Source: Lacibacter cauensis
GTDB taxonomy: Bacteria; Bacteroidota; Bacteroidia; Chitinophagales; Chitinophagaceae
NCBI RefSeq assembly: GCF_007830055.1
Contig: NZ_VLLE01000002.1
Location: forward strand, 321,953 to 385,952
Direction: 5' to 3'
DNA length: 64,000 nt
Notes under the pieces: generated by a model
The model's input: only the letters and a program-made list of their open reading frames with translations
Database searches by the model: none
Told to the model about the DNA's origin: nothing
Part shown: in pieces, positions 19,334-60,365 of the stretch
Layout: every line of letters begins with the position of its first letter
Numbering within the stretch: position 1 is the stretch's first letter
Translations under genes and position numbers: made by a program

Positions 19334-19336
19334 GTG

Positions 19337-21631: not shown

Positions 21632-21684
21632 GGCACAAAGACAGAAAGCAGCACAAAGTCTTAGAGCCTTTGTGACTTCGTGGC
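21624..21684. repeat. Palindromic repeat, CCAC(G/T)AAG family, inverted pair
   Basis: GCCACTAAGGCACAAAG at the left end and CTTTGTGACTTCGTGGC at the right end are inverted copies matching at 15 of 17 positions. Together they make a 61-base hairpin-capable element. Its left end provides the stop codon of the GH43-like gene and its right end lies 10 bases before the next ATG. Confidence 0.85.
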
Positions 21685-21694
21685 AAATAATAAA

Positions 21695-23521
21695 ATGAGA
21701 TTTAGAAATACATTTATCGTTGGCTCAATACTCCTTGCTTCAGCATTGCAGGCGCAGGACACAGTTCGATATTCAGGTACAACCTTGTCGAACGTGGATT
21801 ATCATCACGGGCAATTATCGCCGGCTGTTGGTGTGCACAATATTCAAACCATGCGGGCGAATCGTGCAGATACCGGTGCAATATCATGGACCTACAATCA
21901 TGCACCCATGCTGGCGTACTGGAATAATACTTTTTACCTTGAATATTTAAGTGATCCTGTTGGTGAACATATTCCTCCCGGCCAAACATTGTTGCAAACA
22001 TCAAAAGATGGTTACAGCTGGAGCAATCCGGTTGTGATCTTTCCGCCTTACAAAGTACCCGATGGTTTTGTAAAGCCCGGCAAAACAGATACTGCAAAGA
22101 ATGCGTATGCTGTTATGCATCAACGGATGGGCTTTTATACATCCAAGTCGAAGCGTTTGTTTGCATTGGCGTTTTATGGAATTGTTTTGGGTCAAAAAGA
22201 TGATCCGAATGATGGGAATGGTATTGGCCGTGTGATTCGTGAAATAAAAGCAGATGGAAGTTTCGGCCCGATCTATTTTCTGCGGTACAATCATTCCTTT
22301 AATGAAAAGAATACGATCTATCCGTTTTACAAATCATCGAAGGACAAAGGATTGATCGCAGCGTGTGATGAAATTCTGAGTACACCCTTATTAATGATGC
22401 AGACAGTAGAAGAGGCTGATCGGAACGATCCCTTGATTCCGCTGCAGAAAGATTTTAAAGCATTCAACTATTATCATTTAGCCAATGGAAATGTAGTAGC
22501 GCTCTGGAAATATTCGTTGACCAGCATTAGTAAAGATGAAGGGAAGACCTGGCAATACAATCCAACAAGAGCACCCGGGTTCGTGAATGCCAATGCCAAG
22601 ATATGGGGACAACGCACAACTGATGGTAAATATGCAACAGTATATAATCCTTCTGAATTTCGCTGGCCGTTGGCCATTAGTGTAAGTGATGATGGATTGA
22701 ATTATAGAAATCTGTTGCTGGTAAATGGAGAGATCACTTCCATGCGTTATGGTGGTGCCTACAAAAGTTATGGTCCGCAATATGTGCGTGGTATCCAGGA
22801 AATGGATGGGAAACCTGCCGATGGAAACATGTGGGTAACCTACAGCATGAACAAAGAAGATATGTGGGTGAGCAGGATTGCAGTTCCGGTAAAACAAAAA
22901 GTAGCAGCACCTGTCAACGATGTATTCAATAATTTCCCCGCAGGCAAAGAACTCAACGAATGGAATCTCTATAGTCCGCTTTGGTGTAGAACAGTTATTG
23001 AACAGCACAACAATCAAAAAGTATTGGCACTGCACGACAGTGATCCGTTCGATTATGCAAAAGCAGAACGCATTTTTCCTGAATCGAAAAATGTGGTGAT
23101 TGAATTTACGATTACAGCCAATCAAACAAACACCGGTAGCCTGGAAGTTGAATTGCTGGATAAAAAAGGGATGGCGACACTCCGCATAATGCTTGATTCA
23201 ACAGGAAGTATTTTAACCAAGCAGGGGTATCGTAACAAAAGCCTGGGCAAATACAATGCGGGTGAACAACTCCATTTCAAAGTTGAGTTGAATACCTCAA
23301 CACGTTTTTATACGGTGACCATCAACAATGGCAAACCGAATCTGAATGTATTCTTCCAGCCGGTTGAATCTGTAGAACGATTGTCGTTCAGAACAGGATC
23401 TGTGCGTCGTTTCCCCAATGCAGATACGCCAACCGACCAGGATTACGATCTGCCCGGTGCAGATGCTAAGGCGAAAGAAGCGATTTATTTTATTCATTCA
23501 GTAAAAACAAGTAGTCTGTGA
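21695..23521 (+). CDS. Secreted beta-propeller glycosidase, GH143/sialidase-like candidate
   Basis: Start at ATG 21695 gives a proper signal peptide ending LQAQ; an upstream GTG at 21680 lies in a repeat. The first 420 residues are a beta-propeller with sialidase-like elements (SKDGYSWSNPVVIF, SISKDEGKTWQYN, SVSDDGLNYRN). The rest is a beta-sandwich domain resembling laminin-G-type modules (KVELNTSTRFYTVTINNG). The next gene overlaps it and encodes an (alpha/alpha)6 glycosidase. That propeller-then-barrel order recalls BT1020 of the RG-II system, where GH143 (Dha hydrolase) and GH142 are one protein. GH143 is my best guess; GH145-like or another BNR-type hydrolase is possible. Confidence 0.6.
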   Translation: MRFRNTFIVGSILLASALQAQDTVRYSGTTLSNVDYHHGQLSPAVGVHNIQTMRANRADTGAISWTYNHAPMLAYWNNTFYLEYLSDPVGEHIPPGQTLLQTSKDGYSWSNPVVIFPPYKVPDGFVKPGKTDTAKNAYAVMHQRMGFYTSKSKRLFALAFYGIVLGQKDDPNDGNGIGRVIREIKADGSFGPIYFLRYNHSFNEKNTIYPFYKSSKDKGLIAACDEILSTPLLMMQTVEEADRNDPLIPLQKDFKAFNYYHLANGNVVALWKYSLTSISKDEGKTWQYNPTRAPGFVNANAKIWGQRTTDGKYATVYNPSEFRWPLAISVSDDGLNYRNLLLVNGEITSMRYGGAYKSYGPQYVRGIQEMDGKPADGNMWVTYSMNKEDMWVSRIAVPVKQKVAAPVNDVFNNFPAGKELNEWNLYSPLWCRTVIEQHNNQKVLALHDSDPFDYAKAERIFPESKNVVIEFTITANQTNTGSLEVELLDKKGMATLRIMLDSTGSILTKQGYRNKSLGKYNAGEQLHFKVELNTSTRFYTVTINNGKPNLNVFFQPVESVERLSFRTGSVRRFPNADTPTDQDYDLPGADAKAKEAIYFIHSVKTSSL

Positions 23522-25119
23522 TGCTTGGAATGAATTTTATAAGAGTAATGATCTCGCAGCGTTCGCAGCGTAACCGCAGCGATCGCAGCGTGAAACTGTT
23601 TTTTCTTTGTGCCTTTGTGACTTTGTGGCAATCTTCTTCTGCACAACAAAAGCCATTGATATTAAAACAGGACCAGTTCAAACACTACGTTGATTATTTC
23701 AATACAATGGAAGAACCGAATATTGAGCAGGCCATTCCCAATGTAAAAAGCTGGGAGTGGATGAAAAAAAATATTCCGTTGTTTGAATGTCCGCAACAGA
23801 ATTTTGAAGAGATTTTTTACTACCGCTGGTGGACCTTACGTAAGCACATCAAGAAAACAGAAAAAGGATTTGTGTTTACCGAGTTTTTGGTGCAACGCAG
23901 TTATGCGGATAAATACAATCTCATCTCCAGTGGTCTAGGTCATCATATTTATGAGTCAAGATGGCTGCATGATAAAGCCTACATGGATAACAACCTGCAG
24001 GTGTGGTATCGGGGCAACGATGGTAAGCCGTTAAAGAAACTGCGTTTTTATAGCGGCTGGAATGAAGATGCTATTTATAATCGTTTCCTGGTGAATGGCG
24101 ATAAAAATTTTATGCTTGATCTGTTACCTGATCTGCTAACCAACTATGCAGCATGGGAAGCCGAACGGAAAAGAGCAGATGGTTTGTTCTGGCAGTATGA
24201 TGTTCGTGATGCTATGGAAGAAACCATCAGCGGTGGCCGGACGGAAAAAAATCCACGGCCTTCCATCAACGGCTATATGTTCGGTAATGCCAAAGCCATT
24301 GCAGCAATGGCAGCAATGAAAGGCGATGCAGACGTTGTTGCTTTGTACAACCGTAAAGCCGATTCGTTAAAACAGCTTACCCAAGCCAAACTCTGGAACA
24401 GCAAGCACACCTTCTTTGAAGTGTTGAAAGAGAAAGGAGATACGGCGGCGAATGTAAAAGAAGAGATCGGGTTTATTCCCTGGTATTTCAATTTGCCTGA
24501 TACGCAATACAGCAAAGCATGGCAAAGCCTGATTGACACGAAAACATTTTGTGCGCCATTTGGTATCACCACTGCCGATCGCAGTCATCCTGAATTTCGC
24601 ACACATGGTTGCTGCAAATGCGAATGGGATGGTGCGGTATGGCCGTTTGCAACAGCACAAACATTAACAGGCATGGCCAACCTGCTGAATAATTACCAGC
24701 AGGATTATTTGGCTGACAGTAATTATTTCAGTTTGTTGAATACGTATGTTGAATCGCAGTACTACCGTGGCCGTCCGTATATCGGTGAATACCTGGATGA
24801 GAAAACGGGCTATTGGTTGAAGGGTGATGAGGAACGCAGTCGCTATTACAATCATTCTACATTCAATGATCTCATCATCAGTGGATTGGTTGGTCTGCGC
24901 CCAAGAGCGGATAATACCATTGAAGTAAATCCTTTATTGCCGGATAATAAATGGAATTGGTTCTGTCTCGACAATGTGTTGTATCACGGCAAGATTGTTA
25001 CAATTGTTTGGGATAAGGACGGATTAAAATATAAAAAGGGAAAAGGATTAAGTGTGTGGGTGAATGGAAAGAAAGTGGCTTCGTCGTTGAAGCTGGAAAA
25101 AATTACAGGTAAAATGTGA
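23521..25119 (+). CDS. Secreted six-hairpin glycosidase, MGH1/GH63-like, GH142 candidate
   Basis: An (alpha/alpha)6-barrel glycosidase with GWNEDAIYNRFL, LFWQYDVRDAMEETISGG, CKCEWDGAVWPFATAQTL and a C-terminal IEVNPLLPDNKWNWF strand, as in mannosylglycerate-hydrolase-like enzymes. The ATG at 23521 overlaps the previous stop (TGATG), indicating translational coupling; ATG 23548 gives a shorter signal peptide. The signal sequence (RSQRNRSDRSVK, then LFFLCAFVTLW) is encoded by two dispersed repeats. Position after a propeller gene suggests the counterpart of the GH142 part of BT1020, a beta-L-arabinofuranosidase acting on the Araf-Dha side chain of RG-II. The fold call is good and the family number is inference. 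Confidence 0.65.
   Translation: MLGMNFIRVMISQRSQRNRSDRSVKLFFLCAFVTLWQSSSAQQKPLILKQDQFKHYVDYFNTMEEPNIEQAIPNVKSWEWMKKNIPLFECPQQNFEEIFYYRWWTLRKHIKKTEKGFVFTEFLVQRSYADKYNLISSGLGHHIYESRWLHDKAYMDNNLQVWYRGNDGKPLKKLRFYSGWNEDAIYNRFLVNGDKNFMLDLLPDLLTNYAAWEAERKRADGLFWQYDVRDAMEETISGGRTEKNPRPSINGYMFGNAKAIAAMAAMKGDADVVALYNRKADSLKQLTQAKLWNSKHTFFEVLKEKGDTAANVKEEIGFIPWYFNLPDTQYSKAWQSLIDTKTFCAPFGITTADRSHPEFRTHGCCKCEWDGAVWPFATAQTLTGMANLLNNYQQDYLADSNYFSLLNTYVESQYYRGRPYIGEYLDEKTGYWLKGDEERSRYYNHSTFNDLIISGLVGLRPRADNTIEVNPLLPDNKWNWFCLDNVLYHGKIVTIVWDKDGLKYKKGKGLSVWVNGKKVASSLKLEKITGKM
23553..23630. repeat. CGCAGCG tandem repeat plus TTTGTG repeat inside a signal peptide
   Basis: CGCAGCG units recur four times between 23555 and 23590 (CTCGCAGCGTTCGCAGCGTAA, then CCGCAGCGATCGCAGCGTG). 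CTTTGTGCCTTTGTGACTTTGTGGC follows at 23605-23629 and is the inverted form of the CCAC(G/T)AAG repeat family found between genes here. All of it is translated as the basic and hydrophobic parts of a signal peptide. Confidence 0.75.
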
Positions 25120-27951: not shown

Positions 27952-30900
27952 ATGAAACGAATTATAACCTTACTTGTTCTGTTTATTTCTGTTCAGCAGT
28001 TAACTGCACAGGTAACAGTGAGTAATCTCCGCTGCGAAATGCTGGTGAACCCGCAGGGTATTGATGTGAAACAACCACGCCTCAGCTGGCAGTTACAAAG
28101 TAATCTCCGAAATGTGGTGCAGACAAGCTATCAGATTCTTGTAAGCAGCACCCCGCAAAACCTGCAACAGAACAAAGGTGATGTGTGGAACTCGGGCAAC
28201 ATCAGCAGCAATCAATCCTTGCATGTACCATACAAGGGTGCAGAACTCAAGCCAGGTAAAACCTATTACTGGAAAGTGCTGGTGCAGACGAATAAAGGCA
28301 AAGCGCTTGCTGCACAAACTGCTTTCTTCTCCACGGGACTTACAGCTGAATTATGGAAAGCAAAATGGATTGGTTACGATAAAGCATCCTCATGGGACAG
28401 TGTTACGCAATGGAGCCGCTTAAGTGCAAGATACCTGCGCAAAGAATTTGCAAGCAAGCCTGCAGTAAAACGTGCAACCGTTTATCTCTCCGGGTTGGGT
28501 ATGTATGAACTGTACATCAATGGGAAAAAGATCGGCGACCAGGTGCTTGCACCAAACCCGACTGATTACCGCAAAACTTATTTCTACAATACGCATAATG
28601 TAACCAGGCAGATCAAAGCTGGCAACAATGCCATTGCAACGGTGTTGGGCAATGGCCGTTTTTTTACCATGCGTCAGAATTACAAAACACATAAGCATAA
28701 CACATTCGGTTTTCCGAAACTGTTGTTGCAGTTAGAAATTGAATATACAGATGGAACAACGAAAACGATTGTGAGTGATGAAAGCTGGAAGCTGAATGTG
28801 GATGGCCCCATCCGTACCAACAATGAATATGATGGCGAAGAGTATGATGCTCGTAAAGAATTTATTGGCTGGACGAATGCCGGCTTCAACGACAGCAAAT
28901 GGATGCAGCCTGAATTGGTAGAAGCACCAACAGGAAAGATGGTGGCACAAATGAGCGAACCAATGAAAGTGATGCAAACCATCAAACCCGTTTCCATTAA
29001 AAAAACTGCGAGCGGAAAATATATCCTTGATATGGGACAGAATTTTGCAGGATGGATCAAACTGCAAAACATCAACGGCAAAAAAGGAGAGAAGATCACT
29101 TTACGATTTGCAGAAAGCTTGCAATCGAACGGCGATATTTTTGTAGCGAACCTAAGAGATGCGAAGGTCACAAATGTCTACACCTTTGGTAACTCCCCTT
29201 TAGGGGATGGGGGTTGGCAACCTTCTTTTGTGTACAATGGTTTCCGTTATGTGGAAGTATCAACATTTCCCGGCACACCAACCATCAATCAGTTTGAAGG
29301 AAAGCTGGTGTATGATGCTTTGGAAACAACAGGATCGTTTCAAACTGCAAACGCAACACTCAATCGTATTTATCAAAACGCATGGTGGGGCATTGCATCG
29401 AATTACAAAGGTATGCCGGTTGATTGTCCGCAACGCAACGAACGTCAACCATGGTTAGGCGATCGTACGGTTGGCTCACAGGGCGAAAGCTATGTATTCA
29501 ACAATGCTACTTTGTATGCAAAGTGGATGCAGGATATAGAAGATAGTCAAACAGAAGAAGGAAGCATTCCCGATGTAGCGCCTGCCTTCTGGAATTATTA
29601 CAGCGATGATGTAACATGGCCTGCTGCCTATTTCTTCGTTACAAATAATTTATACAACCAGTTTGGTGATGTTACGCCGATTCAGAAACATTATCCATCG
29701 ATGAAGAAATGGATGCTGTACATGAAGAGTAAGTACATGAAGAATTACATCATCACCCGTGATAAATATGGTGATTGGTGTGTGCCGCCGGAAAGTCTGA
29801 ACCTCATTCATGCAAAAGACAGCAACCGTTTAACGGATGGTAAACTGATTGCAACCGCTTACTATTACAAGTTGCTGTCGTATATGCAACGCTTTGCCAA
29901 CATCACGGACAATACAGATGATGCGAAGTATTATGGCTTGTTGAGCGATAGTATCCGCACTGCCTTTCAACAGGAGTTTTACAATCCAAAACTGAAGCAA
30001 TACAGTAACAATACAGTTACTGCAAACTTATTAGCGTTGTATTTTGGTATTTGTCCCGATTCGTTGCGAGCACCTGTGTTTGAAAAAATAAGGCATAAAG
30101 TGCATGTAGAAAATCATGGGCATATCAGCACAGGTCTCATCGGTTCACAATGGATCATGCGTGGGTTGACCGAATATGGTTATGCTGATCTGGCGTACAT
30201 CATGGCATCCAACAAAACTTATCCCAGCTGGGGTTATATGGTGGAAAATGGTGCGACCACGATCTGGGAATTGTGGAATGGCAATACAGCCGATCCCGGT
30301 ATGAACAGTCAGAACCATGTGATGTTGCTCGGCGATCTGCTCACCTGGTTCTATGAAAATCTGGCTGGCATCCGCACCAACAAAACAGATGTGGCGTTCA
30401 AGAAGATCATCATGAAACCAACCATACCTGCAGGTTTGGATTTTGTAAAAGCATCGTACAACAGTTTTCATGGTTTGATCAAAAGTGAATGGAAAAATTC
30501 TGTCGATCAATTTGAATGGAAGATCAGCATCCCTGCCAACACATCGGCAACGGTTTATATTCCTGCAAACAGCGTGGAAGAAATTACGGAGAGCGGTTTG
30601 TCTATTGCCAACAGCAAAGACATCAAGTTCATGAAAGAAGATGATGGAGCTGTGGTGCTGGAGATTGCATCGGGCAACTACACCTTCATCCGCAACAAAC
30701 AATTCAAAAAAGGAATTGTAAAAGATGAATTCATTTTTGAGCGTGCAAGCTTTCCTGAGAGCCATGCGGCAACAATTGCAGAAACACCGGAAGGATTGAT
30801 TGCTGCATGGTTTGGTGGTACGAAAGAAGGTTACAAGGATGTGTGCATCTGGACAAGTCATTTCAAAAACGGTAAATGGACTGAACCTGCAAAAGTTGCT

Positions 30901-31749
30901 GATGGGGTGATGAATGATACATTACGTTATCCAACATACAATCCTGTTTTGTTTTATGCACCGAATGACGAGTTGTTGTTGTTTTATAAGATAGGCCCCA
31001 ACGTTGCAGGCTGGACGGGCTGGATGAAACGCAGCAAAGACAACGGCCACACATGGAGCGAACGGGAAGCATTACCTGAAGGATTTTTAGGTCCGATTAA
31101 AAACAAACCCGAACTCATCAACGGCGTTTTGCTTTGTCCGAGCAGTACCGAAAAAACAGGTTGGAAAGCACATATCGAATTCACAACAGATTTCGGCAAA
31201 ACATGGACGAAAACAGATGCGATCAACGATCCGAAAATTTTACAAGCCATTCAACCAAGTATTTTAAAATATGCAGATGGCCGTTTGCAGATTCTTTGCA
31301 GAAGCCGCAACACCACATTGAACGAAAGCTGGAGTACAGACGGTGGTAAAACATGGAGCACCATGCAGGCATCAGCATTGCCGAATAACAATTCAGGAAC
31401 CGATGCCGTAACACTGAAAGATGGAAGACAATTGCTCGTGTACAATCATAATTTGCCAAACTCATCATGGGTAAATGGGAAAGGTCCACGTACGCCGTTG
31501 AATGTTGCAGTGAGTAAAGATGGGAAAGTGTGGAACGCAGCGTTGGTATTGGAAGATTCACCTATCAGCCAGTATTCCTATCCATCGGTGATTCAAACAA
31601 AAGATGGACTGGTGCATATTGTGTATACATGGCGGAGAGAGAAAGTGAAGCATGTGGTGGTTGATCCGAGTAAACTGGAGTTGAAAGAAATTGTGAATAA
31701 GCAATGGCCGGGAGCGAAAGAAGGAAGCGGGAAGACAACGGATGATTAA
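27952..31749 (+). CDS. GH78 alpha-L-rhamnosidase fused to a sialidase-like propeller
   Basis: A 1265-residue two-enzyme protein starting two bases after the previous stop. The signal peptide ends LTAQ. Residues about 20-915 are a full GH78 rhamnosidase with DCPQRNE at 491-497 (acid E497) and TTIWELW (base E773). Residues 921-1265 are a BNR/sialidase-type propeller with FPESHAATIAETPEG, Asp-box-like SKDNGHTWSE, TDFGKTWT and STDGGKTWS, and a YPSVIQTKDG strand. The fold pairs rhamnose removal with hydrolysis of a possible ulosonic acid. RG-II side chain C is rhamnosyl-Kdo, which would fit. A 23-base piece of a dispersed repeat is translated near residue 415. No internal start suggests two separate proteins. 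Confidence 0.85.
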   Translation: MKRIITLLVLFISVQQLTAQVTVSNLRCEMLVNPQGIDVKQPRLSWQLQSNLRNVVQTSYQILVSSTPQNLQQNKGDVWNSGNISSNQSLHVPYKGAELKPGKTYYWKVLVQTNKGKALAAQTAFFSTGLTAELWKAKWIGYDKASSWDSVTQWSRLSARYLRKEFASKPAVKRATVYLSGLGMYELYINGKKIGDQVLAPNPTDYRKTYFYNTHNVTRQIKAGNNAIATVLGNGRFFTMRQNYKTHKHNTFGFPKLLLQLEIEYTDGTTKTIVSDESWKLNVDGPIRTNNEYDGEEYDARKEFIGWTNAGFNDSKWMQPELVEAPTGKMVAQMSEPMKVMQTIKPVSIKKTASGKYILDMGQNFAGWIKLQNINGKKGEKITLRFAESLQSNGDIFVANLRDAKVTNVYTFGNSPLGDGGWQPSFVYNGFRYVEVSTFPGTPTINQFEGKLVYDALETTGSFQTANATLNRIYQNAWWGIASNYKGMPVDCPQRNERQPWLGDRTVGSQGESYVFNNATLYAKWMQDIEDSQTEEGSIPDVAPAFWNYYSDDVTWPAAYFFVTNNLYNQFGDVTPIQKHYPSMKKWMLYMKSKYMKNYIITRDKYGDWCVPPESLNLIHAKDSNRLTDGKLIATAYYYKLLSYMQRFANITDNTDDAKYYGLLSDSIRTAFQQEFYNPKLKQYSNNTVTANLLALYFGICPDSLRAPVFEKIRHKVHVENHGHISTGLIGSQWIMRGLTEYGYADLAYIMASNKTYPSWGYMVENGATTIWELWNGNTADPGMNSQNHVMLLGDLLTWFYENLAGIRTNKTDVAFKKIIMKPTIPAGLDFVKASYNSFHGLIKSEWKNSVDQFEWKISIPANTSATVYIPANSVEEITESGLSIANSKDIKFMKEDDGAVVLEIASGNYTFIRNKQFKKGIVKDEFIFERASFPESHAATIAETPEGLIAAWFGGTKEGYKDVCIWTSHFKNGKWTEPAKVADGVMNDTLRYPTYNPVLFYAPNDELLLFYKIGPNVAGWTGWMKRSKDNGHTWSEREALPEGFLGPIKNKPELINGVLLCPSSTEKTGWKAHIEFTTDFGKTWTKTDAINDPKILQAIQPSILKYADGRLQILCRSRNTTLNESWSTDGGKTWSTMQASALPNNNSGTDAVTLKDGRQLLVYNHNLPNSSWVNGKGPRTPLNVAVSKDGKVWNAALVLEDSPISQYSYPSVIQTKDGLVHIVYTWRREKVKHVVVDPSKLELKEIVNKQWPGAKEGSGKTTDD
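29193..29215. repeat. Fragment of the CTCCCC..AGGGGA..GGGGG repeat inside GH78 coding sequence
   Basis: CTCCCCTTTAGGGGATGGGG closely matches CTCCCCCTTCAGGGGACTTG at 40651-40670. It is in frame and codes for NSPLGDGGW just before the conserved PSFVYNGFRYVEV strand. In the GH78 at 9-2753 the same place reads KGDGEESW. Confidence 0.65.
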
Positions 31750-31942: not shown

Positions 31943-33499
31943 ATGCACAATTTGCCATTTATCGATCTTGCAGTCATTGCACTTTACATGCTTGCCATGG
32001 TGGGCATTGGTTTTTATTTTTCACGCAGGAATAAAAACAGCGACCAGTTTACCAAAGCATCGGGACGAATTCCCGGCTGGGCCATTGGTCTTTCTATCTA
32101 CGCCACTTTTTTAAGCAGTAATACATTTTTAGGTGTGCCGGGGAAAGCATTCGGCAGCAACTGGAACGCATTTGTGTTCAGCATTTCCATGCCATTGGCT
32201 GCATGGGTGGCATCCAAATATTTTGTTCCGTTTTACAGAAGCACAGGTGAAATATCGGCGTACACACATTTGGAAAAACGGTTTGGTCCGTGGGCAAGAA
32301 CCTATGCGGTGGTTTGTTTTCTATTGACACAGTTTGCACGTATGGGTTCCATCTTCTTTGGTATTGCACTAAGTCTGCAGGCACTCACAGGTTTCAGTAT
32401 GCAATCCATCATGATCGTGATGGGCATCTGTATTATCATTTACACGGTGCTGGGTGGCATGGAAGCGGTGATCTGGACGGAAGTGGCACAAGGCATCATC
32501 AAAACATTGGGGGCGTTGCTGATTTTATTTTTAGTAGTGAATGATCTACCCGGCGGTTTTTCTACCATTATCAATGTAGCAACAGCAGATCATAAAACAA
32601 GTCTCGGCAGTTTCTCACCCAACTTTACCGAATCAACGTTCTGGGTAGTGTTGTTCTATGGCTTCTTCATCAACCTGAATAATTTCGGGATGGATCAGAA
32701 TTATATTCAACGTTATCATACTGCACAAACGGAGAAGCAGGCAGCGAAGTCCGTTTGGCTTTGTGTGTGGATGTATGTGCCTGCATCGTTATTGTTCTTC
32801 ATCATCGGCACTGCCTTGTATGCATTTTATCAAACACAACCCGGTTTGATTGATCCGGTGAAACTACAGGTAGCAGCCGAACGTTTAGGCGTAGCCGCAA
32901 ATGCACCCGAAGCAAAACAATTGGCTGCAACATTGGCACCTGCCGATTATGGCGATAAAGTATTACCGTTTTTCATGGTGAACAATATCCCGACAGGATT
33001 GGTTGGTTTGATCGTATCTGCCTTATTATCGGCTGCCATGAGTACCATCAGCAGTAATATGAATGCATCGGCTACTGTGTTTACGGTTGACATCTATCAG
33101 AAATATTTCAAACCCGATATCACCGATAAACGTAAACTCTTTTTGCTGCACGTATCAACCATTGTGTTTGGCGTAATTGGTTTGTGTACAGGTTTGGCGA
33201 TGATTGGTGCAAAGAGCCTGCTCGACATCTGGTGGGAGTTGAGTGGCATTTTCGCCGGTGGTATGCTTGGTTTGTTTTTGCTTGGACTCATCAGCCGGCA
33301 AACAAAAAATGCAGCAGCCATAACAGCCGTTATCATTGGCATCATTGTGATTTTGTGGATGACCTTCTCGGGTAAACTCAATGAAAATTATGCGTTCCTG
33401 AAAAATCCCTTGCACAAGAATATGGTCATTGTGGTGGGAACCTTGAGCATTTTCCTTACTGGCTTACTTATTACCAAACTCCGTCCTTCAAAACAGTAA
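31943..33499 (+). CDS. Sodium:solute symporter (SSS family)
   Basis: Predicted inner-membrane Na+-coupled importer with about 13 transmembrane helices over 518 residues. The first helix DLAVIALYMLAMVGIGFYF is typical of the family, followed by the SSS core with SALLSAAMSTISSNMNA (about 355-371), which carries the sodium-site serines. It sits directly ahead of the aldolase/dehydrogenase/kinase cassette, so it likely brings in the substrate of that cassette. Some SSS transporters import sialic acid, a 2-keto-3-deoxy acid, which suits the ulosonic-acid reading. Substrate not determinable from sequence. Confidence 0.88.
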   Translation: MHNLPFIDLAVIALYMLAMVGIGFYFSRRNKNSDQFTKASGRIPGWAIGLSIYATFLSSNTFLGVPGKAFGSNWNAFVFSISMPLAAWVASKYFVPFYRSTGEISAYTHLEKRFGPWARTYAVVCFLLTQFARMGSIFFGIALSLQALTGFSMQSIMIVMGICIIIYTVLGGMEAVIWTEVAQGIIKTLGALLILFLVVNDLPGGFSTIINVATADHKTSLGSFSPNFTESTFWVVLFYGFFINLNNFGMDQNYIQRYHTAQTEKQAAKSVWLCVWMYVPASLLFFIIGTALYAFYQTQPGLIDPVKLQVAAERLGVAANAPEAKQLAATLAPADYGDKVLPFFMVNNIPTGLVGLIVSALLSAAMSTISSNMNASATVFTVDIYQKYFKPDITDKRKLFLLHVSTIVFGVIGLCTGLAMIGAKSLLDIWWELSGIFAGGMLGLFLLGLISRQTKNAAAITAVIIGIIVILWMTFSGKLNENYAFLKNPLHKNMVIVVGTLSIFLTGLLITKLRPSKQ

Positions 33500-33580: not shown

Positions 33581-34558
33581 ATGCCCGATAAAAAATTTGT
33601 CCCGGTAATGATCACCCCATACAATCTCAAAGCAGAGGTTGATCTGGATGTAGTAAGTATATTGGTTGAGTTTTATTTAGCGGCCGGCGTAAAAGGTTTT
33701 TTCGCCAACTGTCTCAGCAGCGAAATGTTCAGCATAACAGAAAGTGAGCGTTTGAATTTAACCGCACATATTGTAAAACAGGTAAGAGGTCGTGTGCCTG
33801 TAGTGGCAACAGGCTCGTTTGGGTTGACCATTGCCGATAAAGCACAGTTTACCAAAAAGATTTACGATACTGGAATTGATGCGGCGATCATGATCACCGG
33901 TCATTTTGCAAAGGAAGAAGACAGTGACGACATTCTGCTCCGCAATTTTGAACAGATGTTTTTGGCCACCGGCAATATACCGTTGGGTATGTACGAATGT
34001 CCGGCTCCTTACAAACGCATCATCACGAACGATGTGTTCCGTCAACTGCTTTCGGCAAACCGGTTGATCTATCACAAAGACACATCCATCACACACGAAA
34101 ATGTAAAAGGTAAACTCGATATACTGGCTTCAACGCCAAATAACATGGAGTTTTACGATGCACATACACCCAATGCAGCGTTTAGTCTGCAGCAAGGCGC
34201 AAAAGGGATGTCGTCTATCTCCGGTAATTTTTATCCGGAAGTAATGGTGTGGATGGTGAACAATGCAAACAATCCCGATAAAAAGGAAGAAGTAAAATGG
34301 TTGCAGGAAGAGTTGACAAAAGTGGATCCGTTGATTCATATTGCATACCCCATGTGTTCGAAATATTTTTTACAGAAGAGAGGATTGCCTGTGCGAACTA
34401 TCAGCCGTGCAGTTGCCACCAAGTTAACACCTGAACAACGACAAACATTAGATGATATATACGATCGTTTCCGGCACTGGTGCGAAAAACTGGGCATCCA
34501 GCAAGTAGATATTCCATCCATTATAGGATCGAACAGTTTGCAGGAAACCGTTTATTAA
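33581..34558 (+). CDS. DHDPS/NAL-family aldolase A, atypical active-site loop
   Basis: Predicted class I TIM-barrel aldolase forming or cleaving a pyruvate-derived bond. The Schiff-base lysine is K166 in IYHKDTS and the catalytic tyrosine is Y138 in MYECPAPY. Where most members have G(T/S)TGE, this protein has ANCLSSEMFS, so the carboxylate-binding loop differs. Length 325 is slightly long. It leads a tight gene set: nine bases to the Fe-alcohol dehydrogenase. A catabolic 2-keto-3-deoxy-acid aldolase role (Dha or Kdo) is inferred from context, because lysine synthesis genes are absent nearby and a second family member is two genes on. Confidence 0.82.
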   Translation: MPDKKFVPVMITPYNLKAEVDLDVVSILVEFYLAAGVKGFFANCLSSEMFSITESERLNLTAHIVKQVRGRVPVVATGSFGLTIADKAQFTKKIYDTGIDAAIMITGHFAKEEDSDDILLRNFEQMFLATGNIPLGMYECPAPYKRIITNDVFRQLLSANRLIYHKDTSITHENVKGKLDILASTPNNMEFYDAHTPNAAFSLQQGAKGMSSISGNFYPEVMVWMVNNANNPDKKEEVKWLQEELTKVDPLIHIAYPMCSKYFLQKRGLPVRTISRAVATKLTPEQRQTLDDIYDRFRHWCEKLGIQQVDIPSIIGSNSLQETVY

Positions 34559-34567
34559 ACAAAGAAT

Positions 34568-35719
34568 ATGTCACAGCTTCCTTTGCGTATTTTTTTTCCC
34601 GGTAAACTGGTTACGGGTAACGGAACATTTGAACAGTTGATCGATGATGTAGTGGCTTTGCAACCGACAAAAGTGTTTATTGCAACCATTACGCCGTTGC
34701 AACAGATCATTGATGCATTTACCGCAAAACTCACTGCACAAAACATAAATGTTGTAACGGATAGATCCATAGTTGCCGAACCAAGCTTCAGCGATTTTGA
34801 GACGCTGATGAAAAAAGTTACGCCTTTCAATCCCGATGTGGTGATTGGTATTGGCGGCGGCAGTGTTTTGGATATTGCCAAATTGGTGGCTGCACAATTG
34901 GAAAATGAGCAGCAGCTGGGAGAATATGTTGGGATAGGTTTACTGAAAGGAAGAAAGAAAAAATTGATTTGTGTTCCTGCAACATCGGGTACGGGCAGTG
35001 AAGTATCGCCCAATGCAATTTTGGTTGATGATGCAGATAACCAGAAGAAAGGCATCATCAGTCCATACCTTGTTCCTGATATTGTATATGTTGATCCGCT
35101 GTTAACGGTATCTGTTCCGCCTGCAATAACCGCAGCAACAGGAATGGATGCGTTGACGCATTGCCTGGAGGCTTACACCAACAAATTTGCATTGCCGTTC
35201 ATCGACCTGTTTGCATACGAAGGCATGCGTTTGATCGCTGCACATATTGAAACAGCAGTGAAAGACGGTAGCAATATCGAAGCAAGAGAAAAAGTAGCGA
35301 TGGGTAGTTTGTATGGCGGCTTTTGTTTAGGTCCGGTGAACACAGCAGGTGTGCATGCATTGTCTTATCCATTGGGAAGTATGTATCATTTGGCGCATGG
35401 TTTATCAAATGCTGTGTTATTACCGTATGTAATGGAGTATAATATTGTGGCAGCAGTAGATCGTTATGCAGATGTGGCTGTTGCATTGGGCTGCACACGT
35501 GAAACAGATGCATGGACAACGGCGAAAGCTGGTGTGGAGAAGATAAAAGAACTGAACAAAGCCTGCAGCATTCCAACAACCTTGCGGGAAGTGGGCGTGA
35601 AAGAAGAAGCCATTTCGCAAATGGCGAGTGAAGCCATGAAGATCCAGCGACTGCTGAAAAATAATCCAAGAGAAATTACCGAACAGGATGCGGTGGCAAT
35701 TTTTAAATCGGCATTTTGA
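34568..35719 (+). CDS. Iron-containing alcohol dehydrogenase
   Basis: Predicted cytoplasmic group III (Fe-type) NAD(P)-dependent alcohol dehydrogenase. The nucleotide-binding GGGSVLDIAK (about residues 97-106) and PATSGTGSEVSP (about 138-149) motifs are present. Metal ligands are D194 and H198 in DALTHCLEAY, followed by the family histidines in GVHALSYPLG and MYHLAHG. Length 383 is standard. It is sandwiched between two DHDPS-family aldolases, with its stop overlapping the next start (TGATG). In a pathway from Dha it would reduce the four-carbon aldehydic acid to D-threonate; a lactaldehyde-reductase role is an alternative. Confidence 0.87.
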   Translation: MSQLPLRIFFPGKLVTGNGTFEQLIDDVVALQPTKVFIATITPLQQIIDAFTAKLTAQNINVVTDRSIVAEPSFSDFETLMKKVTPFNPDVVIGIGGGSVLDIAKLVAAQLENEQQLGEYVGIGLLKGRKKKLICVPATSGTGSEVSPNAILVDDADNQKKGIISPYLVPDIVYVDPLLTVSVPPAITAATGMDALTHCLEAYTNKFALPFIDLFAYEGMRLIAAHIETAVKDGSNIEAREKVAMGSLYGGFCLGPVNTAGVHALSYPLGSMYHLAHGLSNAVLLPYVMEYNIVAAVDRYADVAVALGCTRETDAWTTAKAGVEKIKELNKACSIPTTLREVGVKEEAISQMASEAMKIQRLLKNNPREITEQDAVAIFKSAF

Positions 35720-36621
35720 TGAAGAAGAATAAGAAATTTAGTGGCGTGATTGTTCCGGCTGTAACGCCGCTTACACAGCAACTGCAGATCGATGAAGCAG
35801 CTGTTGAACGATTGTTCAACTCTTTTTACCAGCATCATATCTCTCCGTTCATCTTAGGTACAACAGGTGAATCGGCTTCCTTACCTGCTGACGTAAAAGA
35901 ACAGTATGTAAAAGCGGCTGCAAAATTCAAACAGGCAGGATCGGTTTTGTATGCAGGCATATCATCGAACATACTCAACGAATCAATTGCGTTTGCAAAG
36001 CTCTGTGCCGATCATGCAGTCGATGCTGTTGCAGCAACTTTGCCTTCGTACTATGCGTTAACCGAAACGCAGATGAGGATTTATTTTGAAACACTGGCTG
36101 ATGCATCGCCACTACCCGTGATCATTTACAATATTCCTGCAACCACACACATGAGTATTCCGTTGCAGTTGATTGATGAGTTAAGTCATCACCCAAATAT
36201 TATTGCAACAAAAGATTCAGAACGCAGCGATGAACGTTTAGCTCAATCACTGGATTTGTGGAAAGACCGTGCAGATTTTGGTCATTTTCTTGGCTGGGCT
36301 GCAAAGTCCGCTGAAGCATTGATCGGTGGCAGTGATGGCTTGATACCAAGTACAGGAAATTTAATGCCTGAGATATATGAAGAGATGCTGCAGGCAGTTG
36401 CAGCAAATGATCATACAAAAGCATTCGACATGCAAAAGCTGAGTGATGTGTATGGCAACTTATACCAAAGTGGAAAAACATTAGGTGAAAGTTTGTGGGC
36501 ATTGAAAGCAGTGATGCAGCACAAAGGAATTTGTGAAGATGTGGTGATGCCGCCGTTGCAGGCATTAGATGAAGAGGAGAAACAAAAATTAATTCAGTCG
36601 TACGAAGAAATAAAAGGATAA
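35719..36621 (+). CDS. DHDPS/NAL-family aldolase B
   Basis: Second class I aldolase of the dihydrodipicolinate synthase / N-acetylneuraminate lyase superfamily. It keeps the usual loop LGTTGESASL (about residues 46-55), tyrosine Y137 in IIYNIPATTH and Schiff-base lysine K165 in IATKDSE. Length 301 is typical. The start codon overlaps the Fe-dehydrogenase stop, implying coupled translation. It differs strongly from aldolase A in the active-site loop, so the two probably take different 2-keto-3-deoxy acids. In the RG-II reading, Dha and Kdo are the candidates. Which one takes which cannot be told from sequence. Confidence 0.85.
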   Translation: MKKNKKFSGVIVPAVTPLTQQLQIDEAAVERLFNSFYQHHISPFILGTTGESASLPADVKEQYVKAAAKFKQAGSVLYAGISSNILNESIAFAKLCADHAVDAVAATLPSYYALTETQMRIYFETLADASPLPVIIYNIPATTHMSIPLQLIDELSHHPNIIATKDSERSDERLAQSLDLWKDRADFGHFLGWAAKSAEALIGGSDGLIPSTGNLMPEIYEEMLQAVAANDHTKAFDMQKLSDVYGNLYQSGKTLGESLWALKAVMQHKGICEDVVMPPLQALDEEEKQKLIQSYEEIKG

Positions 36622-36627
36622 GTAGTT

Positions 36628-37656
36628 ATGAGCACATTACCAGTTTTAGCCATTACAATGGGCGACCCTGCAAGCATCGGTCCCGAGATTGCTGTAAAAG
36701 CATTGTTGCAAAAAGAGACCTACGATATCTGCAAACCATTATTGGTAGGTGATGCTATCGTTTTTCAGCAGATCATTGATAAACTGCAACTCAATGCAAA
36801 AGTGAATGCCGTAACAAAAGTGGCGGATGCAAAATTTGAATTAGGAACAATTGATGTGTACGACCTCGGCATCACAGATATTGCAAAGCTGGAATTTGGT
36901 AAAATCCAAGCCATGTGTGGCGAAGCATCGTTTCAGGCAGTGAAAAAGGCAATTGAACTGGCATTGGCGAAAGAAGTGGATGGAACAGTAACAGGTCCTA
37001 TCAACAAAAAATCCATCAACGAAGCCGGTCATCATTTTGCAGGACATACAGAAATCTATGCGCATTACACCGGCACAAAAAAATATGCGATGCTGCTGGT
37101 GGAAGATCATATCAATGTAATCCATGTAAGTACGCATGTGTCACTCCGGCAAGCATGTGATTTGGTAAAGAAAGAACGCATTGTGCAGGTCATCGAATTG
37201 ATCGTTGATGGATTAAAACGTTTAGGCAAAACAAATCTGAAAATTGGTGTGGCAGGATTGAATCCGCACGCAGGTGATAGCGGTTTGTTCGGCACCGAAG
37301 ATGATGAAGAAATACTACCTGCAGTTATCGAGGCAAGAAACTTAGGTTATGATGTAGAAGGTCCCGTACCACCTGATACCATGTTTGCAAAAGCAGCAAT
37401 GGGAGCGTACGGTGGTGTGGTGGCTATGTATCACGACCAGGGACATATTCCTTTTAAGCTGGCAGGTTTTAAATGGAATGCAGAGAAACAACAGATGGAT
37501 AGTGTGAAAGGTGTGAACATTACATTGGGCTTGCCCATTGTGCGTACATCTGTTGATCATGGTACTGCATTTGAAATTGCAGGCAAAGGCATTGCCAGCG
37601 CCGATGCAATGGTGTTGGCCATTGAAAGTGCGGTGCAACTGACAAAAAACAAATAA
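36628..37656 (+). CDS. PdxA-family 4-phospho-acid dehydrogenase (PdxA2-like)
   Basis: Predicted NAD-dependent dehydrogenase/decarboxylase of the PdxA family. It has GDPASIGPEI at the N-terminus, metal-ligand histidines in HFAGHTEIYA, NPHAGDSGLFG and HDQGHIPFK, and RTSVDHGTAFEIAG at the C-terminus. Length 342. True PdxA acts in vitamin B6 synthesis, but PdxA2 paralogues next to DUF1537 kinases oxidise and decarboxylate D-threonate or D-erythronate 4-phosphate to dihydroxyacetone phosphate. The adjacent downstream gene is such a kinase, so the catabolic role is favoured. Confidence 0.87.
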   Translation: MSTLPVLAITMGDPASIGPEIAVKALLQKETYDICKPLLVGDAIVFQQIIDKLQLNAKVNAVTKVADAKFELGTIDVYDLGITDIAKLEFGKIQAMCGEASFQAVKKAIELALAKEVDGTVTGPINKKSINEAGHHFAGHTEIYAHYTGTKKYAMLLVEDHINVIHVSTHVSLRQACDLVKKERIVQVIELIVDGLKRLGKTNLKIGVAGLNPHAGDSGLFGTEDDEEILPAVIEARNLGYDVEGPVPPDTMFAKAAMGAYGGVVAMYHDQGHIPFKLAGFKWNAEKQQMDSVKGVNITLGLPIVRTSVDHGTAFEIAGKGIASADAMVLAIESAVQLTKNK

Positions 37657-37709
37657 TGAATGATGAGTAATGAGTGGCCACTCATTATTCATCACTGATC
37701 ACTCATCAT
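37657..37709. repeat. Palindromic ATGATGAGTAATGAGTGG repeat
   Basis: AATGATGAGTAATGAGTGG and CCACTCATTATTCATCACT meet head to head as an inverted repeat with few mismatches, followed by GATCACTCATCAT. It fills the gap between the PdxA-like gene and the kinase start at 37710. The reading frame stays open through it from 37674 but reads as repeat-derived residues. Confidence 0.75.
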
Positions 37710-38834
37710 ATGATTGCAGTAATAGCCGATGATTTTACAGGAGCCGCTGAGTTAGCTGGCATCAGTCTGCGTTACGGACTGAATGTAGAATTATGTACGG
37801 CTGATGTTGCTGTAACATCTGCAGATGTGCTGATCGTAAGTACAGATAGCCGCTCTTTGAATAAAACTGCTGCTTTAGAAAAAACAGCAGAAGCAATAAA
37901 GCAAGTGTTGCAACTTAATCCATCGCTTGTTTATAAAAAGATCGATTCGGTGTTGCGTGGGTATGTGTTAGATGAACTGAAAGTTCAGATGCAGTTGATG
38001 CAGAAAAGCAAAGCCTTTATTCTTCCTGCAAATCCATTCTTGAACAGAACCATCAGCAACGGAACCTATTATGTGCAGGGAACACCCATCAGCGAAACAG
38101 GTTTTGCAAACGATCCGGAATTTCCTGTAAGCAGTTCTTTTGTAAAACAAATACTGAATGATGAAGTAGAGGTGCTTCAACACAACGATCAACTTCCAGC
38201 AACAGGATTTATTGTTGGCGAAGCAACAACTGATGCAGATGTGCAGGCATGGGCTGCAAAGATGAACGATGAATTTGTGCTGGCAGGCGCAGGTGATTTT
38301 TATACAGCACTGCTGGAACAACGGTTTGAATTGAAGCAACAGGAGGGCTTTCAACTGAAACAACCTTTTTTGTATGTGTGCGGCACAGCTTATGAAAATT
38401 CGGTGAATTATATCAAAGAAGTTAGTGAACGAAGTGAAGTGGTATTGTATGTAGGGAAAGAGATCAGTACAAATGATGGAGCAGTAACAGAAGAGTGGTG
38501 GCAGCAATGCAGAAATGTTTTGGCAAAAGAACAGAAAGCCATCATAGCAGTAAAGAAAGAAGAGTTGCCTGAAAATGCATCTGCTCTAACACTACGCAAC
38601 AATATGGCAAAACTGGTGGCGCAGGTAGTGGAAGAGCAGCAGATCAAAGAACTGTTCCTCGAAGGTGGATCAACAGCAACAGCTATTTTAAATGAACTGA
38701 ATATCAAAAAGCTTTCACCCTTGCAGGAATTAACGAGAGGAGTTGTACGGATGAAAACAAACAATTTATACATCACGGTTAAACCCGGTAGTTACGAATT
38801 AAGCAATGAAATAAAACAACTGTTTAGTCAATAG
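37710..38834 (+). CDS. Four-carbon acid sugar kinase (DUF1537 family), PdxA-linked
   Basis: Predicted ATP-dependent kinase phosphorylating a four-carbon sugar acid such as D-threonate at O4. The N-terminal IADDFTGAAELAG motif (residues 4-16) is the family substrate-binding signature. A C-terminal nucleotide-binding region includes LFLEGGSTATAIL. I start it at 37710; the frame upstream to 37674 lies in a palindromic repeat. Length 374, slightly shorter than the usual 400-430. With the PdxA-like gene it forms the known acid-sugar pair that yields dihydroxyacetone phosphate and CO2. Confidence 0.85.
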   Translation: MIAVIADDFTGAAELAGISLRYGLNVELCTADVAVTSADVLIVSTDSRSLNKTAALEKTAEAIKQVLQLNPSLVYKKIDSVLRGYVLDELKVQMQLMQKSKAFILPANPFLNRTISNGTYYVQGTPISETGFANDPEFPVSSSFVKQILNDEVEVLQHNDQLPATGFIVGEATTDADVQAWAAKMNDEFVLAGAGDFYTALLEQRFELKQQEGFQLKQPFLYVCGTAYENSVNYIKEVSERSEVVLYVGKEISTNDGAVTEEWWQQCRNVLAKEQKAIIAVKKEELPENASALTLRNNMAKLVAQVVEEQQIKELFLEGGSTATAILNELNIKKLSPLQELTRGVVRMKTNNLYITVKPGSYELSNEIKQLFSQ

Positions 38835-38842
38835 CATAAAAC

Positions 38843-38871
38843 AATCTGTGTTCATCAGTGCAATCAGTGAG
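38843..38871. repeat. ATCTGTGTTnATCnGnGnnATC repeat, copy 1
   Basis: ATCTGTGTTCATCAGTGCAATC with GTGAG after it is one copy of a 28-base dispersed repeat. Its inverted counterpart lies at 62544-62571. It fills the gap between the kinase and the SSS symporter. Confidence 0.65.
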
Positions 38872-38896
38872 CACAGCACCACATAACGATTCGTCC

Positions 38897-40438
38897 ATGA
38901 ACCATTTACATTTTATTGATTACTGCATTATCCTGCTGGTATTAGGCATTACGCTTTACCTCGGTTTTCGTTTTGCCAAAAGACAGGATACAACGGAAAA
39001 ATATTTTTTATCGAAAGGTAATTTTCCCGCATGGGCATTGGGCTTGTCGTTGCTTTCCACACTTATCAGCAGTGTAACATTTCTCGGCTATCCTGCGCAA
39101 GGGTATACCAGCAATTGGATATTATTGGTGCAAGGCTTAATGGTACCCATCGTTTTGTTGGGAACCATCTGGTTTATCGTGCCACTCTTCCGCAAAGTGA
39201 TCGGACTTAGTACGTACGAATATTTTGAAAAACGATTCGGAGGTTTTGCACGCTACTACAGTTCGTCATCGTTTATCATCCGGCAGTTTGCAGGTATGGG
39301 CACAGTGTTGTTTTTAATTGCCGTGGCCATTCATGAAATGACAACCATCAGTCCCTACATCATTCTTGCCGTAGTTGGGTTTGTATTGGTGTTGGTGAAT
39401 TTAAAAGGAGGCATGCAGGCTGTTATCTGGCTCGATGTGTTTCAGGGTTTCATGTTGTTTGCAAGCAGTATCATCTGTTTAGGCGTGTTGTTGTTTTCCA
39501 TAAAAGGGGGGGTGCCAGAAGCAATCAAAGTTGCAACCGAAAACAACCGCACAGGTTTTGGCCCTTATGATTTTCGTTTCGATCAACTCACTCTGATTGT
39601 GATGATCATCAACGGCGCATTTTATGCTATTCAGAAATATGCAACTGATCAAACCGTGGTGCAGCGTTATCTCACAGCTAAATCAGATCGTGCAGCAGAG
39701 AAAGCGTCGTTGTTGGGCATTTCATTAACTGTTCCTATCTGGACGATCTTTATGTTTATCGGTACAGCCTTGTTTGTGTTTTATAAACAAAACAATTTAC
39801 CCGAAGGCATGAAAGCCGAAGCAGTGTTCCCGCATTTTATTATGACGGAGTTGCCAACAGGTGTCATTGGTTTTTTAGTTGCGGCGCTCATCTCTGCAGC
39901 TATCTGTAGTCTCAGTGCCGATTTGAATTCATTGGCTGCAGTTGGCATGCAGGATTATTATAAAAAACTACGTCCAAAGAAAACAGATAAAGAATATCTC
40001 TACATGAGTAAAACCTTTGTGGTGTTATCGGGATTGATTTCTATTGCCATCGGTGCACTTTATCTTGTATTGGGCAACGAAGGTGTGTTGGGTGTCATCT
40101 TCACCATCTATGCTATTTTCTCCGGTGGTATTGTTGGTATTTTTCTGTTGGGTCTGTTTAGTGCAAGAGCAAATCGTCAAGGTGTGAACATCGGTATCAT
40201 TACATGTATTTTGTTTACTGCATGGGCTTTCTTAACCAGCACGCCCATTGGTGTAAAGGAACCAAAACTCTTACTCGATTTAGGTAATTTTAATTTCACA
40301 CATCATAAACTCATGCTTGGCGTATACAGTCATTTGGTTGTGATCGTGGTTGGTTATATCGCCAGTTTGTTTTTTCCGAAACCTGTACTCGAACCAAATT
40401 TATTGTACAGTAGTTGGAAAGCAAATCGGCATAAATAA
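38897..40438 (+). CDS. Sodium:solute symporter (SSS family)
   Basis: Second Na+-coupled importer, about 513 residues and 13 predicted membrane helices. I start at 38897 (MNHLHFIDYCIILLVLGI); the upstream part of the frame is repeat-derived. Family features are the first helix, FLGYPAQGYTSNW in the early part, and ALISAAICSLSADLNSLAA near 330-348. It closes the aldolase-kinase cassette opened by another SSS gene, so the cassette is bracketed by two importers. Substrate unknown; a rare acidic sugar is plausible. Confidence 0.87.
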   Translation: MNHLHFIDYCIILLVLGITLYLGFRFAKRQDTTEKYFLSKGNFPAWALGLSLLSTLISSVTFLGYPAQGYTSNWILLVQGLMVPIVLLGTIWFIVPLFRKVIGLSTYEYFEKRFGGFARYYSSSSFIIRQFAGMGTVLFLIAVAIHEMTTISPYIILAVVGFVLVLVNLKGGMQAVIWLDVFQGFMLFASSIICLGVLLFSIKGGVPEAIKVATENNRTGFGPYDFRFDQLTLIVMIINGAFYAIQKYATDQTVVQRYLTAKSDRAAEKASLLGISLTVPIWTIFMFIGTALFVFYKQNNLPEGMKAEAVFPHFIMTELPTGVIGFLVAALISAAICSLSADLNSLAAVGMQDYYKKLRPKKTDKEYLYMSKTFVVLSGLISIAIGALYLVLGNEGVLGVIFTIYAIFSGGIVGIFLLGLFSARANRQGVNIGIITCILFTAWAFLTSTPIGVKEPKLLLDLGNFNFTHHKLMLGVYSHLVVIVVGYIASLFFPKPVLEPNLLYSSWKANRHK

Positions 40439-40502
40439 AAATGGGTAATTATGAAATGGATAAATAATAATGTAACAGGCAACACTAACACTATGAATCT
40501 TC

Positions 40503-60248: not shown

Positions 60249-60250
60249 TT

Positions 60251-60361: not shown

Positions 60362-60365
60362 AAAA

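Follow-up and report, generated by a model that had tools for sequence, protein, structure and literature searches.

A candidate gene module for the catabolism of Dha, a rare sugar of rhamnogalacturonan II, in Lacibacter cauensis and other bacteria

A DUF1537 kinase and the dehydrogenase PdxA2 reportedly make up a D-threonate pathway in themselves, as set out by Zhang in 2016, with the PdxA2 step producing dihydroxyacetone phosphate (DHAP). The kinase DtnK is cited as a D-threonate kinase in the available text of PMC10971088. In a 64,000-nucleotide stretch of the Lacibacter cauensis genome (family Chitinophagaceae; assembly GCF_007830055.1, contig NZ_VLLE01000002.1, positions 321,953 to 385,952 of the forward strand; hereafter the window), relatives of both enzymes are encoded together with an iron-type alcohol dehydrogenase (Fe-ADH), a pyruvate aldolase (aldB) and a sodium:solute symporter (SSF2), in the midst of genes for the degradation of rhamnogalacturonan II (RG-II). 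RG-II holds 13 sugars, and the enzymes that release them are said to have been largely assigned by Ndeh in 2017. We propose that the genes at 34568-40438 probably form a catabolic module for one of these sugars, the heptulosaric acid Dha (3-deoxy-D-lyxo-2-heptulosaric acid), with substrates and reactions predicted from the sequences. No description of Dha catabolism was found in the searchable part of the literature, which does not in itself establish its absence in print.

With the D-threonate pathway the module shares the kinase and dehydrogenase families, the nearest model of the kinase and the nearest structures of both proteins; it differs in that its kinase is short and divergent, in that both proteins score under the curated D-threonate cut-offs, and in the presence of aldolase and Fe-ADH genes beside the pair, so that D-threonate would arise within the pathway instead of being the nutrient. 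The first steps of sialic acid catabolism (sialidase, symporter and NanA lyase) offer a second parallel, in which a ketosidase of sialidase fold, a sodium symporter and a class I pyruvate aldolase deal with an acid sugar of the 2-keto-3-deoxy type, although the product here would be a four-carbon aldehydic acid and aldB is only 22-25% identical to structures of N-acetylneuraminate lyase (NAL). The D-apionate/apiose pathway (OiaX, OiaK), which is present in the same locus and in our sample is equally tied to glycoside hydrolase family GH143, likewise takes a rare RG-II sugar through a DUF1537 kinase, but with another kinase subfamily, a RuBisCO-like decarboxylase in place of PdxA and no aldolase. 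Finally, Fe-ADH genes stand with DapA-like and sialidase-like ones in region GR6 of E. coli BEN2908 and in a cluster of S. meliloti, the former also containing DUF1537 and PdxA2-like genes, and the available text of PMC12928451 links the GR6-type region and its S. meliloti counterpart to pyridoxal phosphate. The resemblance to our module lies in these genes; in contrast, the enterobacterial and rhizobial aldolases that were compared belong to separate lineages, and the Rhizobium and Pectobacterium genomes tested are without GH143.

The distribution of the genes was followed in 395 genomes of the class and in 244 genomes of the Chitinophagaceae. In the class sample, GH143 exceeded its cut-off in 12 genomes and DUF1537 in eight, five of which were GH143 genomes. 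In the family sample, DUF1537 was over the cut-off in 24 genomes (and weak in one more), which were divided by score and length into 20 with the short threonate-type kinase and 22 with an OiaK-type kinase, 18 having both. All 20 short-type loci were read (the window, genome G110 and 18 others), and the neighbours of the OiaK type were seen in a subset of loci only. Although selected by the kinase alone, all 20 genomes, L. cauensis itself included, hold Fe-ADH, aldB, the PdxA-family gene and the kinase together; the gene order is altered in G496, as in two loci of the wider search described below (L116, L120). SSF2 lies close to this set in 19 of the 20 and was not found in G543. All 20 genomes were also among the 47 of 244 with a GH143 match of more than 200 bits (hypergeometric probability 9e-17), a count that leaves aside ten weaker matches (50 genomes exceed the curated cut-off and 57 have any match); by genus, 15 of 15 were GH143-positive (3e-11), both tests ignoring relatedness above the genus. 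The OiaK-type kinase shows the same pattern, as all 22 of its carriers among the 244 genomes have a strong GH143 match. The distance between short kinase and GH143 is 13-51 kb in 14 of the 20 genomes.

Genome contigs were searched more widely with a profile made from the Fe-ADH alignment. Among the 80 best-ranked loci (of at least 80, hence not a census), eight carry the full module of the Bacteroidota type with SSF2 (L111-L117 and L120, from Puia, the three Sphingobacteriaceae Sphingobacterium, Mucilaginibacter and Olivibacter, an Ignavibacteriales member, Paludibacter, Marinoscillum and another Bacteroidales member); most listed loci beyond L120 are without the full module, and two low-identity loci flagged as full (L122, L180) are not counted with the eight. 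GH143 was present in all eight genomes, with RG-II-type genes within 10 kb of Fe-ADH in L111, L112, L113, L117 and L120, and in none of nine other genomes tested (L118, L119, L121, L122, L126, L127, L129, L143, L180). Since the 20 kinase-selected genomes and eight more from the Fe-ADH scan hold the core, its grouping is not a matter of chance. RG-II-degrading bacteria often carry this conserved gene set, and in the examined genomes of Bacteroidota and Ignavibacteriota the module occurs only together with GH143. A preliminary description of the genes had named their occurrence mostly in genomes without RG-II enzymes as an outcome that would speak against Dha; for the form found in these two phyla this is not the case, GH143 being present in 20 of 20 and eight of eight genomes.

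For Dha, every gene of the module can be given a step. Enzymes of the GH142 and GH143 types would, judging from their families, free Dha from RG-II, and SSF2 would import it. aldB would then form a Schiff base with Dha and split it between C3 and C4 into pyruvate and D-threuronate, whose aldehyde would be reduced by Fe-ADH to give D-threonate; the DUF1537 kinase would convert this into D-threonate 4-phosphate, and the PdxA2-like enzyme would oxidise C3, so that the resulting beta-keto acid would lose CO2 and leave DHAP. The stereochemical argument of the preliminary description, from cleavage of Dha and reduction to D-threonate, held when redone by hand: with C4 and C5 of Dha pointing left and C6 right, cleavage between C3 and C4 leaves CHO-left-right-COOH, that is D-threuronate, whose two centres are C5 and C6 of D-lyxo Dha, and reduction followed by rotation yields D-threonate. 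By the same procedure 3-deoxy-D-manno-octulosonic acid (Kdo) would yield D-arabinose, which is not an expected substrate of the kinase and the PdxA-family enzyme. Taken together, genomics and chemistry lend the idea of a Dha pathway good support, and we hold it with reasonable confidence.

Fe-ADH has the features of a group III iron alcohol dehydrogenase, in which the metal ligands are one aspartate and three histidines: D194, H198, H263 and H277, as well as a GGGS motif, are invariant in a 19-row alignment. It scores under the cut-offs of both lactaldehyde reductase (FucO) models of NCBIfam (245 and 231 bits versus 523 and 537). aldB, which starts at ATG 35719 or TTG 35716, combines the features of a class I pyruvate-dependent aldolase, namely a TIM barrel, a Schiff-base lysine and a tyrosine (K165 and Y137, invariant in 28 rows) and a GTTGE loop (GTSGE in row L111). 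Its AlphaFold2 model is confident (predicted local distance difference test, pLDDT, 94.3), and the nearest folds in Foldseek are C. glutamicum NAL (5c54), YagE and 4xky, a B. thetaiotaomicron protein titled dihydrodipicolinate synthase (DHDPS). An identity as DHDPS (DapA) was nevertheless rejected: the arginine after YNxPx, which in DHDPS binds the semialdehyde carboxylate, is found in none of the 28 aldB rows (threonine in 27, methionine in one), and the score with the dapA model is 152, under the cut-off of 206. A KDSE motif is present in all 28 rows, extended to KDSER in 27. In trees, which carry long-branch warnings and of which only the grouping within clades was used, the aldB proteins of all 28 modules form one clade apart from the second aldolase of the window (aldA) and from the own-genome paralogs and proteobacterial aldolases included in the tree.

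The kinase starts at GTG 37674 or at the in-frame ATG 37710, the latter being the family-like start and giving 374 amino acids. Its best NCBIfam model is D-threonate kinase (155 bits, versus 73 for 3-oxo-tetronate kinase). The match to the C-terminal domain is weak (37 bits), but the AlphaFold2 model is confident (pLDDT 90.9), and all eight Foldseek matches at E<=0.001 are structures of the DUF1537 type (best TM-score 0.85), so that the protein shows the two-domain DUF1537 fold. Among PDB sequences, the dehydrogenase is closest to PdxA2 (2hi1, 289 bits), followed by 4jqp (277), which carries the name 4-hydroxythreonine-4-phosphate dehydrogenase, by the D-threonate 4-phosphate dehydrogenase 6e85 (271) and by E. 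coli PdxA (168). The earlier reading of the two genes as a kinase/PdxA2 pair is in line with the best model of the kinase and the nearest structure of the dehydrogenase, while the best NCBIfam match of the dehydrogenase is a PdxA-named model and both proteins remain under the curated D-threonate cut-offs.

These curated cut-offs are passed by a counterpart in Pectobacterium polonicum (L180; kinase 612 versus 450, dehydrogenase 683 versus 583). The L180 kinase matches PDB 4xfm/4xgj over its full length with 855 bits; both entries have the same sequence, that of P. atrosepticum ECA3761, and the structure was reportedly solved with D-threonate. Genes adjoining the pair encode an Fe-ADH, an aldolase of the DHDPS type, a symporter of the SSF family, a BNR_2 protein and a protein resembling YhcH/NanQ, whose 104 bits fall short of the anomerase cut-off (160). 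In the enterobacterial family of L180, D-threonate kinase exceeded its cut-off in 27 of 119 genomes; all 27 loci were read, and in 13 of them kinase, Fe-ADH and aldolase are adjacent, seven of these also having symporter, BNR_2, NanQ-like and SDR genes. For E. coli, a stretch spanning the kinase, Fe-ADH and aldolase genes is matched over at least 80% of its length, at 60-80% identity, by 1,043 of 5,426 complete genomes. The one E. coli region opened (L260:5246-14225, NZ_CP019455, between glnS and nagE) clusters a DeoR-type regulator, D-threonate-4-phosphate dehydrogenase, dtnK, Fe-ADH and a DHDPS-type aldolase, continues with TerC, sialidase-like, YhcH and SLC13 permease genes, and is named in RefSeq after D-threonate enzymes; we regard it as a candidate pathway of the Dha type in a species that is easy to work with. 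Among the aldolases compared, those of enterobacteria and rhizobia form lineages separate from aldB. In the alphaproteobacteria Rhizobium (L127:7705-12131) and Roseomonas (L143:7909-12249), Fe-ADH, PdxA-family and BNR_2-type genes stand together with a further lineage of DHDPS-type aldolases, and GH143 was not found in either genome.

Several observations weigh against the assignment to Dha. Association with RG-II alone cannot single out Dha among the RG-II sugars. Six of the 20 modules are far from GH143 (four at least 255 kb away on one contig, two on different contigs), and 27 of the 47 GH143 genomes are without the short threonate-type kinase; release of Dha therefore does not require the module. 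The eight further loci came from the Fe-ADH scan and were picked because they hold the complete set of four genes; consequently only their GH143 status constitutes a test. GH143 was found in none of the seven proteobacterial relatives tested, and in the Opitutae genome L118 the genes for Fe-ADH, PdxA and DUF1537 are present, with neither aldB nor GH143 detected. Fourteen of the 27 enterobacterial kinase loci are without an aldolase, and of nine proteins sought there only the kinase, the dehydrogenase and, in 13, the regulator were found. As to the window proteins, the kinase with its 155 bits is well short of the curated D-threonate kinase cut-off of 450 (NCBIfam), and the dehydrogenase reaches 322 bits versus 583 for D-threonate 4-phosphate dehydrogenase (PRK03371); the latter protein also passes the general pdxA model TIGR00557 (337, cut-off 290), and its top NCBIfam match is a PdxA-named model (374, its cut-off of 470 not being reached). 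TIGR00557, however, does not separate PdxA from D-threonate enzymes, because the Pectobacterium D-threonate enzyme passes it as well (366).

Part of this evidence would suit an alternative in which D-threonate or a related tetronate is taken up as such, aldB and Fe-ADH belonging to another pathway and being mere neighbours. A DUF1537 kinase and PdxA2 are said to suffice for D-threonate, and both the 14 aldolase-free enterobacterial loci and the gene set of L118 without aldB are in line with it. We nevertheless consider it unlikely, since Fe-ADH and aldB accompany the kinase in each of the 20 genomes picked by the kinase alone, and since 13 of the 27 enterobacterial loci show the same pairing, there with an aldolase from a separate lineage. 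Quite improbable is L-aceric acid, another RG-II sugar, as the substrate. It is the only other RG-II sugar that we see as a possible feed for the kinase and PdxA. Fe-ADH would reduce its aldehyde, and the primary alcohol so formed would be phosphorylated by the kinase; oxidation of the beta-hydroxy acid by the PdxA-family enzyme, with decarboxylation, would lead to a 5-deoxypentulose 1-phosphate. Given the structure of L-aceric acid, its reduced form, worked out by hand, offers the same HOOC-C(OH)-CHOH-CH2OP pattern, and the association with RG-II genomes would be identical. Yet the pyruvate-type aldolase, present in all 20 kinase-selected loci, would be left without a step, the kinase by its best model and the dehydrogenase by its nearest structures most resemble D-threonate enzymes, and the Pectobacterium counterpart includes the NanQ-like protein, albeit one under the anomerase cut-off.

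Improbable to a similar degree is the arrangement favoured in the preliminary description, in which aldA and the four enzyme genes form a single cassette with aldA acting on Dha and aldB on Kdo. Gene order and family assignments were borne out, as all five open reading frames (ORFs) are present on the + strand in the order aldA, Fe-ADH, aldB, PdxA-family gene and DUF1537 kinase, each above its Pfam cut-off (DHDPS, 91 bits for aldA and 135 for aldB; ADH_Fe_C, 187; PdxA, 343; SBD_N, 126). The tight spacing described for the first four genes was likewise recovered (a 9-nt gap between aldA and Fe-ADH, an overlap of 1 or 4 nt between Fe-ADH and aldB, and a 6-nt gap before the PdxA-family gene), and a gap of 17 or 53 nt precedes the kinase; two sodium:solute symporters that travel with the genes (31943-33499 and 38858-40438) had been left out. 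aldA is directly upstream of the core in the window, in nine other family genomes and in L111, but it is not beside the core in the other ten of the 20 kinase-selected genomes; with the symporter SSF1 it stands without the other four genes in RG-II loci of G300, G080, G175 and G188 (40-68% identity), and it occurs without the core also in the sister species G471. The single five-gene cassette was therefore set aside, and the feature should be redrawn as a composite of the core at 34568-40438 (Fe-ADH, aldB, PdxA-family gene, kinase and SSF2) and a separable aldA unit. Because aldA adjoins the core in only half of the 20 genomes and is found elsewhere with another symporter, aldB is the better candidate; aldB, rather than aldA, is likely the Dha aldolase, and Kdo, if served at all, fits aldA instead.

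aldA (E<=1e-40) is present in 45 of the 244 family genomes, 30 of which have strong GH143. At seven further aldA loci, SSF1 was found in five, and in three a match to the GH78/BNR_2 fusion of the window whose short length would suit the BNR_2 portion alone; the identity of these pieces beside aldA in L199-L201 was judged from match length and ORF size. Chain C of RG-II is rhamnose-Kdo (Rha-Kdo) and chain D arabinofuranose-Dha (Araf-Dha). According to the available text of PMC12282258, the terminal sugar is rhamnose for chain C and arabinofuranose for chain D. Since a BNR_2 domain is fused to a rhamnosidase in the window, we tentatively suggest that aldA and SSF1 may be a separate unit handling Kdo. 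The fusion itself (27952-31749) looks built to remove Rha and then Kdo from RG-II, and in several relatives its matches fall in two pieces, which we read as split genes.

Hardly credible, finally, is a role in vitamin B6 salvage, with the kinase and the PdxA-family enzyme making a pyridoxal phosphate precursor: the available text of PMC12928451 reads the related E. coli cluster in this way and the dehydrogenase passes the TIGR00557 cut-off, but the PdxA-family gene was set aside as the B6 gene of the genome in view of a second PdxA copy at C2:768355, and the aldolase, Fe-ADH, symporter and RG-II setting would be left unexplained.

The surroundings of the module (Table 1) comprise GH78, GH2, apiosidase-like, BT_1020-like (GH143 type), GH142-like, GH78/BNR_2 fusion, GH141 and GH127 genes and two SusC/SusD pairs, and the GH143-type, GH142-like, apiosidase-like and GH141 genes together with the SusC/SusD pairs mark an RG-II utilisation locus. 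We presume the protein at 23518-25119 to be GH142 from the two-domain architecture of BT_1020, and take the apiosidase-like protein to be GH140. In the available text of PMC7922503, GH142 and GH143 are found together with GH137-139, which points to RG-II. The OiaX- and OiaK-like genes have these models as their best matches, yet under the curated cut-off of 700; after them come genes for an Asp/Glu racemase-like protein and an SBF transporter, and since this four-gene order (59004-63895) recurs in G300, G080, G110, G065, G513 and G599, the latter two genes may be part of apiose metabolism. At 40451-42865 an esterase-like domain is fused to a xylose-isomerase-like TIM barrel, and in some RG-II relatives two separate pieces match it. 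A DUF6298 protein (16331-19333) and a protein without Pfam match (14655-16307) have relatives in 7 and 8, respectively, of 11 GH143 genome regions compared, which were cut at about 20 kb; both possibly have RG-II functions.

Table 1. Features of the window, with coordinates, strand and supporting matches
Feature	Coordinates	Strand	Match
Apiosidase-like protein (GH140 type)	19334..20707	+	PF13204 372 bits
GH143-type (BT_1020-like) protein, candidate Dha hydrolase	21680..23521	+	PF24067 397 bits
GH142-like glycosidase, candidate beta-L-arabinofuranosidase	23518..25119	+	PF22422 294 bits
GH78-type alpha-L-rhamnosidase/BNR_2 sialidase-like fusion, proposed chain-C (Rha-Kdo) enzyme	27952..31749	+	Pfam domains
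Sodium:solute symporter SSF1, frequent aldA partner	31943..33499	+	PF00474
Aldolase A (aldA), divergent DHDPS-family protein, optional neighbour, possibly Kdo aldolase	33581..34558	+	PF00701 91 bits
Iron-type alcohol dehydrogenase (Fe-ADH), proposed D-threuronate reductase (to D-threonate)	34568..35719	+	PF25137/PF00465
Aldolase B (aldB), class I pyruvate aldolase of the DHDPS/NAL family, proposed Dha aldolase	35719..36621	+	PF00701 135 bits
PdxA-family dehydrogenase, PdxA2-like, proposed D-threonate 4-phosphate dehydrogenase (decarboxylating, to DHAP)	36628..37656	+	PF04166 343 bits
DUF1537 kinase, short form, proposed D-threonate 4-kinase	37710..38834	+	PF07005 126 bits, PF17042 37 bits
Sodium:solute symporter SSF2, proposed Dha importer, core-module member	38858..40438	+	PF00474
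OiaX-like decarboxylase and OiaK-like DUF1537 kinase, apiose/apionate catabolism	59004..61655	+	NCBIfam 519 + 405 bits

We know of no natural source of D-threonate, and if the module acts on Dha as proposed, the D-threonate pathway would gain one. It is conceivable, with chances that we see as not quite even, that the D-threonate kinase/dehydrogenase pathway often serves as the lower part of a Dha pathway, and that the latter came together more than once from separate lineages of aldolase (in Bacteroidota/Ignavibacteriota, in enterobacteria and perhaps in Alphaproteobacteria). GH143 is present in a Bacteroides control genome, in which DUF1537 was not found. If this interpretation is true, Bacteroidota of gut and soil would free Dha, many of them without the module, about one fifth of complete E. 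coli genomes would hold the enterobacterial form, and cross-feeding on Dha is predicted. A new reading would also fall to the E. coli cluster (1,043 of 5,426 complete genomes), which the available text of PMC12928451 links to vitamin B6. With a named gene module and exact chemistry, the cellular fate of Dha becomes directly testable.

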